Assembly: GCF_017447225.1 (NCBI RefSeq)
Contig: NZ_JAFSNZ010000023.1
Coordinates: 1-49,504 of the forward strand
Direction of reading: 5' to 3'
DNA from: Methanobrevibacter sp.
GTDB lineage: Archaea; Methanobacteriota; Methanobacteria; Methanobacteriales; Methanobacteriaceae
Length of the DNA: 49,504 nucleotides
Part shown: piece by piece, positions 18,506 to 21,721 of the stretch
How positions within the stretch are numbered: the stretch's first letter is position 1
Layout: every line of letters begins with the position of its first letter
Made by a program: the position numbers and the translations under genes
Notes under the pieces: model-generated
Told to the model about the DNA's origin: nothing
Databases searched by the model: none
Seen by the model: the letters and a program-made list of their open reading frames with translations, nothing else

Positions 18506-18733
18506 CTATTCTACTTCAATATTTTCAGCTTCTTCTTTACGAAGACAAACATCATAACCTTTAATACTCATTTCAATAGGATCTCCCAAAGTAGCTACTT
18601 TTTTAACTTGAATTTTAGCTCCTTTAACAAAACCCATACCTAATAAGTGTCTTCTTAAATCAATATCTCCAGTATCATGGTATTTTACTAAAGTTACTGT
18701 TTCACCAGGTTTTGCATCTTTTAATGTTTTCAT
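18506..18733 (-). CDS. feoA: Ferrous iron transport protein A
   Basis: 75 residues forming a small SH3-like domain. DTGDIDLRRHLLGMGFVKGAKIQVKK in the middle (the L-x-x-MG-hydrophobic motif) and a final EAENIEVE strand are typical of FeoA. It is a cytoplasmic partner of FeoB. ATG 18733 is chosen because GGTGAT lies four bases upstream; the in-frame start at 18748 would be inside the site. It is separated from feoB by 156 bases with its own promoter and iron boxes, so it is not simply a downstream operon gene. Confidence 0.9.
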   Translation of the reverse strand: MKTLKDAKPGETVTLVKYHDTGDIDLRRHLLGMGFVKGAKIQVKKVATLGDPIEMSIKGYDVCLRKEEAENIEVE

Positions 18734-18766
18734 TTTATCACCAATCAATAAATATTAAAATAATTT

Positions 18767-18889: not shown

Positions 18890-20908
18890 CTATGCAAATC
18901 CAGCTAAAGCACCAATATTGAATATCAAGAATGAAACAATATATGCAGTTACTAAAGTGATAGCACACATGGTTAATGCCCATTTGTAACTGTTGGTTTC
19001 CTGTTTGATTGCACCGATAGCTGCGAAACATGGAGTGTATAATAATGTAAATGCCATGAATGAGAATGCAGACAATGGAGTGAATGTTTCTTGTACTAAT
19101 GAAGTAATTCCATCTTCATCATCTTCTTCCATACCAGCTAAAGTACCGAAGGTTGCAACTACAACTTCTTTAGCAGCTAAACCAGCGATAATAGCTACAG
19201 CAGCTTGCCAGAATCCAAATCCTAATGGAGCGAATATTGGAGCAATTACATTACCGATCATACCTAAAACACTGTCAGCAGATCCGTATTCTACACCTAA
19301 TGGGAAGATACTTAAAGCCCATAATACGATTGAACAAGCAAGAATGATAGTACCTGCTTTTCTTAAGAATCCTTTTACTTTTTCCCAAGTGTGTAATAAT
19401 ACACCTTTTACGGATGGTACTTTATATGTTGGAAGTTCCATAACGAATGGAGTGGACATTCCTTTAAACATAGTTCTTTTAAGAATACCTGCAACAATAA
19501 GAGCAACTACAATACCTAATAAGTAGATTGCGAGTAAAACAGTACCTTCGTTTTCAGCAAAGAATGCTGCGGTAAAAATAGCATAAATTGGTAATCTTGC
19601 AGTACATGACATGAATGGAACAAGCATCATAGCAAGCATACGGTCCCCTTCATTTTCCATAGTTCTGGTAGCCATAATAGCAGGCACACCACAACCGAAT
19701 CCTAAAATCATAGGAATGAATGCTTTTCCGTGAAGACCCACTAATTTGTGCATAACTTTATCCAAAGTAAATGCAGCTCTTGCAAGGTAACCACAGTCTT
19801 CTAAAATACTTAAGAATAAGAACATTAGAATAATAATTGGCAAGAAAGTAAGAACTCCACCTACTCCTCCAATGATACCGTCACAGATAAAGGAAGCGAG
19901 GTATTCGTTAGGGATAAATGCAGCAACTGCTTCTGCAATCATACCGAATAATTCGTCAATCATATCTTGGAAAGGCGCTCCAATTGTAAATGTTAACTGG
20001 AACAATAGCCACATGATAACAATAAATATGATAGGTGCTAAAATTCTGTTTGTAACAATTTTATCAATTTTGTCAGTTGTTGTTTCTTTTTCAACAGCTG
20101 GTTTTTTAACAGCTTCAGCTACTAAACCGTCAATAAATGCATATCTTGCGTTTGCAATAACCTCTTCTGCACCTTCAGAGTAAATGTCAATAAGGTGTTT
20201 GCTGACTTTGTCAACTTCCATCATGATTTTGGAACTCATGCTGGATTGCTGAACTTTTTCTATAACAATTGAATCTTTTTCTAATAACTTAATTGCAGTC
20301 CAAACTGAAGGAACATCAAGTAAAGATTTATCCTGTTCTATAATTGATTGAAGATCACCCAGATGTTCTCTTAATTCATCACCATATGATAATTTAGCAC
20401 TAGAGTCAATAGGTTTTGCAGCAGCATTTTCAACGGTTGTTAATAATTCGTCAAAACCATCTTTGGTTTTCGCATTAACTTCCACTACTGGGAAACCTAA
20501 TAATTCACTCATTAATTTAATATCAATGATGTGATCTTTTTTCTTAGCAAAATCATTCATGTTGAGTGCCATTACTAAATTAGCACCTAATTCCATCATT
20601 TGAACTGTTAAGTACAAATTACGTTCCAAATTAGCCGCATCAACTACATTAATTATTACATCTGAGTCGTCATCTACAATGAAATCTCTTGAAACAATTT
20701 CTTCCATAGAATGAGCACTTAATGCATAATTTCCCGGTAAATCGACAACATCATATTCGTAGTCACCATGTTTGAAACTACCTTCTGCCCTTTCAACGGT
20801 TTTTCCAGGCCAGTTACCTACATGTTGGCGCATACCAGTTAATTGATTGAATACTGTAGTTTTACCCACGTTTGGGTTACCAGCTAATCCTACAATTAAT
20901 TCTTTCAT
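18890..20908 (-). CDS. feoB: Ferrous iron transporter B (GTPase)
   Basis: About 672 residues. The N-terminal G domain has [16 protein letters not shown] (G1), [10 protein letters not shown] (G3) and LNMND (G4), followed by a GDI-like spacer. The membrane part has two Gate regions: [21 protein letters not shown] with [14 protein letters not shown], and the later [15 protein letters not shown]. It imports Fe2+ across the membrane. I prefer ATG 20908 ([11 protein letters not shown]), preceded by GGAGAATGGTTA, over the in-frame ATG at 20923. The iron box at 21039-21052 lies between the TATA element and the likely transcript start. Confidence 0.95.
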
Positions 20909-21038
20909 TAACCATTCTCCCATTTTTATTGAATTAAATAGAGAAAATTTATTAAGATACAGAGATCTTAATAAACATCACCCTTTTTTGAAAAAAATCA
21001 TCTTAGTTTAAGTTTCTACCAACTTCAAAATTCAAAGA

Positions 21039-21104
21039 TTAGGCTAACCTAAACATATTATAAAGTTTTATTTTTATTCTATTTAAATGTTTAGGCATAC
21101 CAAA
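21039..21104 (-). promoter_or_regulatory. feoB promoter with two iron boxes
   Basis: On the minus strand TTTATAATATG (about 21054-21065) serves as TATA. The perfect palindrome TTAGGTTAGCCTAA (21039-21052) starts right after it and covers the expected transcript start. A second, weaker box TTTGGTATGCCTAA (21091-21104) lies upstream. The sequence closely fits the DtxR/IdeR/MDR1-type consensus. The resulting feoB leader is about 120 bases. Confidence 0.75.
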
Positions 21105-21117
21105 ACAAAATTAATAT

Positions 21118-21150
21118 TTAGGTATGCCTAAAAAAATAGGAAATTTTATA
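21118..21150 (+). promoter_or_regulatory. Rightward promoter P2 with iron box
   Basis: A perfect palindrome TTAGGTATGCCTAA (21118-21131) is followed after 11 bases by TTTTATAAG (about 21143-21151). It reads away from feoB toward no protein-coding gene for over 400 bases. The expected start is near 21170. Confidence 0.6.
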
Positions 21151-21169
21151 AGTAAATACATAGTATATA

Positions 21170-21285
21170 TTAATCAAGGTAATGAACTTACCAAAAAAAT
21201 ATACACTCCAAAGATTTTAAAAAATCCATATATTTTTCCTCAAGAAAGAAGTTTGATCCCACATTAAACTTCTTTAACTTTTTTT
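21170..21285 (+). ncRNA. Candidate iron-regulated small RNA
   Basis: About 115 bases downstream of P2. It begins near a small hairpin GGTAA-TGAAC-TTACC (21178-21192), passes an AT-rich single-stranded stretch and ends with a perfect 10-bp stem AAAGAAGTTT / AAACTTCTTT (21245-21254 and 21266-21275) around an 11-base loop, then a seven-T run (21279-21285). That end looks like a factor-independent terminator. A 12-codon frame from ATG 21183 is not convincing as a gene. No match to a named RNA family is claimed; no RNA data were available. Confidence 0.45.
21245..21285 (+). terminator. Terminator-like hairpin with T-run
   Basis: Perfect 10-bp stem, 11-base loop (GATCCCACATT), then AAC and seven T. 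It stops just before the next iron box (21291) and so divides the region into two transcription units. Confidence 0.6.
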
Positions 21286-21290
21286 AAAAT

Positions 21291-21373
21291 TTAGGTTTAC
21301 CTAAAAAAATGAAAAGCTTTATATATAATAACAAACTACATTATAACTAGTGATGAAAATTAGGTACGCCTAA
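21291..21373 (+). promoter_or_regulatory. Rightward promoter P3 between two iron boxes
   Basis: TTAGGTTTACCTAA (21291-21304) lies upstream and TTAGGTACGCCTAA (21360-21373) downstream of the strong TATA element TTTATATATAATA (21318-21330). The second box covers about +14 to +28 of the predicted transcript. This sandwich is the same logic as at feoA and feoB. Confidence 0.65.
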
Positions 21374-21530
21374 ATATCTAATTTGATATTACTAATGTGT
21401 TGTTGTTTAAAACGACATTACTACACTCCGATTGTTATTAAATTAGTTTAACTCTCTTTTCTAATTTAATAAAAAACATATAACTACTCTCACGAAATTA
21501 AATATGTCTAACATATTTAATTTCACCTAT
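21346..21530 (+). ncRNA. Candidate second structured RNA or long leader
   Basis: Downstream of P3 no protein frame is evident for 250 bases. The stretch can form three stems: GTTGTTT/AAACGAC (about 21403-21417), ATTAAATTAG/CTAATTTAAT (21437-21446 with 21461-21470) and the perfect 13-bp GAAATTAAATATG/CATATTTAATTTC (21494-21506 with 21512-21524). It could be an RNA ending near 21535 or the leader of the small cysteine peptide at 21608. Only structure and promoter support it. Confidence 0.35.
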
Positions 21531-21607: not shown

Positions 21608-21721
21608 ATGGCGACAAAAAATAAACCAAAATGCTGTGAATCCGCAGCAAATGAGACAAATACTGTAAAAAGAATTTTTAAAAAAATCTGGACATTTTTC
21701 TTTGGATGTAATTGTCATTAA
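21608..21721 (+). CDS. 37-residue cysteine-rich peptide next to feoB
   Basis: Starts MATKNKPKCCESAANET, then a basic amphipathic/hydrophobic stretch VKRIFKKIWTFFFG (20-33), and ends CNCH. The pairs CC (9-10) and CxCH (34-37) could bind a metal, and the central helix could lie on or in the membrane. A good ribosome site (AGGTGATTTAA) and its own promoter with an iron-box-like site support it. It resembles in idea the small FeoB-associated Cys-rich proteins and FeoC, but I see no clear homology. Confidence 0.6.
   Translation: MATKNKPKCCESAANETNTVKRIFKKIWTFFFGCNCH

Follow-up and report, generated by a model that had tools for sequence, protein, structure and literature searches.

We analyzed a window of 49,504 nucleotides from Methanobrevibacter sp., that is, the whole stretch from position 1 to 49,504 of contig NZ_JAFSNZ010000023.1. 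The gene of a ferrous iron transporter, feoB (18890–20923, minus strand; Pfam FeoB_N, 5.8e-63, and FeoB_C, 5.7e-22), is followed downstream by feoA (18506–18748, minus strand; Pfam FeoA, 3.9e-19) and is transcribed divergently from units that are predicted to produce small RNAs. Two iron boxes belong to the feoB promoter region. One, TTAGGCTAACCTAA (21039–21052), lies 3′ of the predicted feoB start site and is kept in the aligned relatives, and the other, the variant TTAGGCATACCAAA with one mismatch (21091–21104, minus strand), lies in between the feoB promoter and the divergent RNA promoter and is also conserved. The feoB leader additionally contains a perfect 11-bp inverted repeat (TTTATTAAGAT/ATCTTAATAAA, 20948–20975). 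The named relatives that carry close feoB genes belong to Methanobrevibacter.

Four exact boxes of the form TTAGGN4CCTAA are found inside 335 bp near feoB, where 0.003 would be expected (P(≥4) ~2.5e-12) from the background of 18 exact sites in the remaining 2.16 Mb of the genome. The clustering of iron boxes near feoB is thus far beyond chance. One DtxR-family gene is present in the genome. At five other places (L049, L051, L052, L055, and L057, the first with ABC transporters), a single exact iron box precedes protein genes, and these boxes are predicted to mark a wider iron regulon.

The first RNA unit is limited to close relatives

The earlier note had described, in the interval directly following these boxes, an iron-box promoter driving a stand-alone RNA, and its reading of the individual elements was accurate. 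The box, TTAGGTATGCCTAA (21118–21131), is an exact match; the TATA element TTTTATAA (21144–21151, plus strand), which is TTTATAAA-like in L003 and L004, lies at a plausible distance from it; and the terminator-like 3′ end (21245–21285, plus strand) consists of a perfect 10-bp stem (AAAGAAGTTT, 21245–21254, with AAACTTCTTT, 21266–21275), AAC, and seven T (21279–21285). With its start placed by the distance from the TATA element, the predicted small RNA 1 would cover 21172–21285 (plus strand), ~114 nt where ~115 bases without a credible gene had been claimed, and the candidate ORFs of this interval indeed fail. A 47-aa ORF begins within the box, 5′ of the predicted transcript start, and a 12-aa ORF (ATG at 21182) is lost in the closest relative.

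RNA 1 has a predicted fold of −17.7 kcal/mol against a shuffle mean of −9.3 kcal/mol (z −3.2; 2 of 200 shuffles equally good). It carries two C/U-rich segments, ACACUCC (21203–21209) and AUCCAUAUAUUUUUCCUC (21224–21241, plus strand like the first), the second of which is kept in the closest relatives, and it has ACUCC and a UCCAUAUAUUUUUCCUC segment in common with the RNA family described below. Its distribution is narrow. The covariance search of the interval that had been suggested does return matches, but the model (R3), built from four genomes, hits exactly those four of the 67 genomes of the genus. The stem is identical across these four and shows no covariation, and in a fifth genome (G004) the box, the TATA element, and the stem have all decayed. 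Joint conservation of box and stem, which the earlier note had named as a test, holds in three relatives but not elsewhere. An iron-controlled stand-alone RNA is still the best reading of the unit, although the strong evidence for it comes from sibling RNAs and not from the interval itself. RNA 1, which is the weakest member of this larger set, is best seen as a young, lineage-limited member of the family.

The second unit belongs to a genus-wide RNA family

When the intergenic region was searched against the 67 genomes of the genus, the unit 1 interval was kept in few of them, while the next 250 bases were retained at 70–92% in most. This second unit (21291–21530), which the earlier note had not described, repeats the promoter layout of the first (63-nt direct repeat, 73% identity) and far exceeds it in strength of fold and in conservation. 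Its first iron box (21291–21304) is exact, as it is in 27 of 30 relatives, with at most one mismatch in all 30, and the TATA element TTTATATA (21318–21325, plus strand) has a match in 30/30. A second box (21360–21373, at most one mismatch in 28/30) lies inside the 5′ hairpin of the transcript, a predicted small RNA of 182 nt (21349–21530, plus strand) that we call type A and that is supported by its fold, by the matches of its covariance model R1, and by covariation. Across the type A loci of 30 genomes, the paired boxes are 68–72 nt apart and flank the TATA element and the start; at the level of sequence, the same arrangement of paired TTAGGN4CCTAA boxes is present in most copies of the type B RNAs described below.

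Type A opens with a 5′ hairpin (AGUGAU...AUUACU, 21349–21393, plus strand as are all the following elements) in which three pairs are changed on both sides. In the alignment of 30 genomes, a variable hairpin separates it from the first C/U segment, CUACACUCCGAUU (21421–21433), unpaired according to both alignment and fold. The middle hairpin (UUAUUAAAUUAG-loop-CUAAUUUAAUAA, 21435–21472; two pairs changed on both sides in type A) exposes the C/U loop ACUCUCUUU, and the third C/U segment, CAUAUAACUACUCUCAC (21477–21493), is unpaired, nearly invariant, and spaced like a combined anti-start-codon and anti-Shine-Dalgarno sequence. The RNA closes with a 13-bp 3′ hairpin (GAAAUUAAAUAUG/CAUAUUUAAUUUC, 21494–21524), both arms of which are identical in 30/30 genomes.

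The predicted fold of type A reaches −40.3 kcal/mol compared with −18.9 kcal/mol in shuffles (z −6.7; 0/200 as good). Five pairs are changed on both sides against 1.7 in shuffled controls, where 1 in 500 reaches five, and structures slid along the alignment give 0–2; 99.7% of the alignment cells pair. Model R1 detected type A in 55 of the 67 genomes of the genus, once in each apart from four that have a second match, and gave no match in 72 genomes from 16 other genera of the family. No Rfam family matched the region at E up to 1, nor six further loci at 0.1. Being invariant on both arms, the 3′ hairpin offers no covariation evidence and instead implies a constraint on the sequence itself, which suggests an additional function. 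We also observed that its arm CATATTTAATTTCACC, when reverse-complemented, reads GGTGAAATTAAATATG, in which a perfect ribosome site is joined to a start codon, and that this sequence is identical in nearly all of the 30 genomes.

Two readings would deprive the transcript of any role as an RNA. Of the repeated elements, the iron boxes are the most conspicuous, and it could be that the operators alone matter, as a cluster serving feoB beside incidental hairpins and a functionless RNA. However, the ~180 nt downstream of the boxes are more conserved than the box centres and covary, and copies of the RNA lie elsewhere in the genome, far from feoB, making this explanation very improbable. Still less credible is that the units encode small proteins. 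Short ORFs do occur, as they will by chance, but loops and spacers vary in length by non-multiples of three, no conserved start codon was found in the alignments, and a minus-strand ORF running through the 3′ hairpin shifts frame between species.

Type B RNAs share the architecture of type A

Other iron boxes of this genome pair up ~71 nt apart at three places, and these yield a related set of predicted RNAs, type B. Single copies lie next to sepF (L047) and in the gap that separates a flavodoxin-like ORF from gatE (L046), and three stand in tandem within a gap of 1 kb next to a rubrerythrin gene (L048:2668–3572, G000:C22). Tandem type B arrays are present in L007 and L006 too. The type B model matched 62 of the 67 genomes of the genus with 1–5 copies each, five of them in this genome, and found none in the 72 genomes of sister genera. 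Five pairs of the type B middle hairpin are changed on both sides compared with 2.3 in shuffles, and 21 alignment cells carry such changes compared with 5.9 (0/500 shuffles).

Types A and B have in common a closing 5′ hairpin, a middle hairpin, and exposed C/U segments, which in type B are ACAAUCUCCAAAAU, UUUCCACAAUUUU, UCUGCC, and a CUCUCC terminator loop. The next-best places of the type A model in this genome are the type B copies. In genome G007, type A is located at C1:564462–564650 and type B at 563903–564020. At L046 and L047, the RNA points toward the 3′ end of an opposite-strand gene, and in such a convergent gap it cannot be a leader.

A further RNA was noticed at L054:2086–2290 (G000:C77), where an iron box and a TATA element are followed by a terminator-ended, leader-like RNA of ~165 nt before an argG-like gene. 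It carries CAUAUAACU and CUCCCGAUU, like type A, and is possibly a third RNA type.

A cysteine-rich peptide gene often follows type A

Behind type A in the window lies a gene for a 37-aa cysteine-rich, basic peptide (21608–21721, plus strand; ribosome site AGGTGAT) that has its own TATA element and for which no Pfam family was found. Homologues of 34–40 aa, also basic and of the form ...CC...KRILKKIWTFFFGCNCH, follow type A within ~75 nt at 19 of 30 loci, and in at least 12 loci type A continues straight into the peptide gene.

This arrangement raises the question of whether type A is the 5′ leader of the peptide gene, an attenuator or riboswitch-like element, with RNA 1 as an abortive product or a read-through relic. 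The peptide gene often begins within 25 nt of the hairpin, leaving no room for a promoter, so that in many loci type A may indeed act as a leader too. As an account of the whole family this seems unlikely, although it is the strongest of the competing explanations. In 11 of the 30 loci a well-conserved type A has no recognised peptide gene behind it, so that type A is not always upstream of one; the peptide gene of the window has its own TATA element; and type B, with the same architecture, has no such gene and sits in convergent gaps. The type B copies in these gaps and the 11 type A loci devoid of the peptide gene point to RNAs that stand alone. The peptide itself is possibly an iron carrier or an RNA helper.

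Exposed C/U segments may pair with translation starts

In these A+T-rich genomes, G-rich stretches are largely ribosome sites, and exposed CUCC or CUCUC therefore suggests pairing with translation starts. Such segments are unpaired in the predicted folds of the family and are kept in the alignments. In CAUAUAACUACUCUC, CAUAU (the complement of AUAUG) and CUCUC (the complement of GAGAG) follow one another at about the natural spacing of a start codon and its ribosome site.

In an exploratory target analysis, in which several segments were examined and Fe-S genes were assigned by cysteine pattern, we compared 1.2 Mb from each of two closed genomes (G007 and G008; 342 ortholog pairs). The best ortholog-pair sum for CAUAUAACUACUCUCAC against translation starts was −36.6, compared with a mean of −29.1 and a minimum of −34.0 in 30 shuffles of the segment, and its pairing correlated between the two genomes at 0.49 against 0.28 ± 0.05 in shuffles. 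C/U-rich segments pair with any Shine-Dalgarno sequence, so part of this signal is generic. Fe-S genes paired better with CAUAUAACUACUCUCAC than other genes (p 0.026; 0.019 after correction for anti-Shine-Dalgarno energy; 0/30 shuffles). Stronger Shine-Dalgarno sites account in part for the Fe-S bias of the other segments. Outside the ortholog set, the bias gave p 0.025/0.013 in G008 (2/30 shuffles) and 0.086/0.11 in G007 (0/30 shuffles). Among the top sites of CAUAUAACUACUCUCAC are those of a 4Fe-4S ferredoxin, of an hdrB-like CCG protein, and of a hydrogenase-type subunit (Oxidored_q6). This modest enrichment (p ~0.01–0.11 in two partial genomes) is only suggestive of Fe-S mRNAs as targets.

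Two candidate pairings were discarded. A CMD-family gene has an exact antisense site for CAUAUAACU here and in G007, the strongest single pairing in two species, but the pairing survives in just 9 of 30 relatives, and between strains the gene's leader has been swapped with a repeated leader. The exact antisense sites of UUUGGAGAUUG fall within ORFs or within the RNAs of the family. As a separate observation, the CMD-family promoter and leader (L051:322–403, G000:C52) are repeated at many unrelated places in the genomes of the genus; this leader looks mobile or recombining and is perhaps common to surface-protein genes.

The RNAs might alternatively be made in low iron to bind a protein, for example to titrate an RNA-binding or ribosome-associated factor, and not to act on mRNAs. 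The 3′ hairpin arms, invariant in 30 genomes, and the near-invariant CAUAUAACUACUCUCAC show no compensatory change, and the RNAs are multi-copy, as would suit such a sponge. Several distinct unpaired C/U segments and a complementarity to translation starts that beats shuffles argue for mRNA pairing instead, and we regard protein binding as improbable, slightly more so than the leader explanation.

Discussion

The reading that we favor, with a probability of roughly 65%, is that these RNAs form a family of iron-starvation small RNAs repressed by a DtxR-type protein, whose exposed segments would cover the ribosome site and start codon of target mRNAs, many of them for Fe-S proteins. The comparisons presented here strongly support the predicted RNA family and its iron boxes as such, with the promoters, the conserved structure, the copy numbers, and the restriction to the genus all read directly from sequence. 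From the same sequences we infer the DtxR-type repressor, the transcription and iron response of the units, their action in trans, and their targets.

According to this model, when iron is plentiful the DtxR-type repressor would occupy the box upstream of the TATA element and block transcription, and in the main members it would also occupy the second box just past the start. When iron is low, the RNAs would be transcribed and would terminate at the hairpin and U-run. Their A+U-rich hairpins may then present C/U-rich single strands, namely CUACACUCCGAUU, ACUCUCUUU, and CAUAUAACUACUCUCAC in type A and ACAAUCUCCAAAAU, UUUCCACAAUUUU, UCUGCC, and the CUCUCC loop of the terminator in type B. The exposed strands would pair with the Shine-Dalgarno and start-codon regions of target mRNAs and lower their translation, and if iron-sulphur proteins are the preferred targets, iron would be spared for essential uses.

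Iron-sparing small RNAs are textbook knowledge for bacteria, where RyhB and PrrF are made in low iron with Fur and Hfq as partners. The earlier note had likened its RNA to RyhB in role though not in sequence; the role fits the present model, and the family differs from RyhB and PrrF in having no Rfam match and a DtxR-type protein as the predicted regulator. Staphylococcal IsrR offers a closer parallel, as a genus-wide, iron-repressed RNA of ~174 nt in an A+T-rich genome, controlled by Fur through two promoter boxes, in which three exposed C-rich regions meet the Shine-Dalgarno sequences of iron-protein mRNAs and the stems are conserved with little covariation (PMC9410917). The Methanobrevibacter family is likewise genus-wide and, as predicted, iron-repressed, with two repressor boxes at the promoter, a similar RNA length in A+T-rich genomes, three exposed C-rich segments in type A, and conserved stems that covary little; unlike IsrR, which is bacterial, Fur-controlled, and encoded by one gene, it has archaeal promoters, DtxR-type boxes, and several paralogues per genome. 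In Bacillus subtilis, another iron-starvation RNA, FsrA, binds Shine-Dalgarno sequences through a C-rich motif and is assisted by the small Fur-controlled proteins FbpA, FbpB, and FbpC (PMC9410917). Exposed C-rich segments are shared with FsrA as well, and the Rfam comparison revealed no homology to either IsrR or FsrA. A comparable Fbp-like part for the 37-aa basic peptide would be pure conjecture by analogy.

Among methanogens, sRNA154 and sRNA41 of Methanosarcina mazei mask the ribosome binding sites of their targets, and sRNA154 and sRNA162 were identified as nitrogen-responsive (PMC5867862). The RNAs described here resemble these three in being small RNAs of a methanogen but differ from sRNA154 and sRNA162 in that their predicted response is to iron, and we found no sequence relationship to any of the three. 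Our literature search returned no iron-responsive archaeal small RNA, an absence that does not prove novelty, and no small-RNA study or transcript-start map of Methanobrevibacter.

A more far-reaching version of the model, for which we consider the odds about even, would see here a home-grown, multi-copy iron-sparing RNA regulon of Methanobrevibacter that is controlled by a DtxR-type repressor and has converged on RyhB, FsrA, and IsrR. It would be the first case in archaea of a trans-acting RNA system that responds to iron. CAUAUAACUACUCUCAC would be its built-in anti-start-codon and anti-Shine-Dalgarno element, and the co-regulated 37-aa peptide might be an Fbp-like helper or an iron carrier.

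Hydrogen-using methanogens are extremely rich in iron, owing to their hydrogenases, heterodisulphide reductase, and ferredoxins; they inhabit guts, a setting of contested iron, and dominate the methane output of humans and livestock. This family combines fixed promoters with several copies and defined exposed segments, and would allow post-transcriptional control by iron to be tested directly in a methanogen. If the model is true, the strategy of masking ribosome sites with C-rich segments would have arisen independently in archaea.
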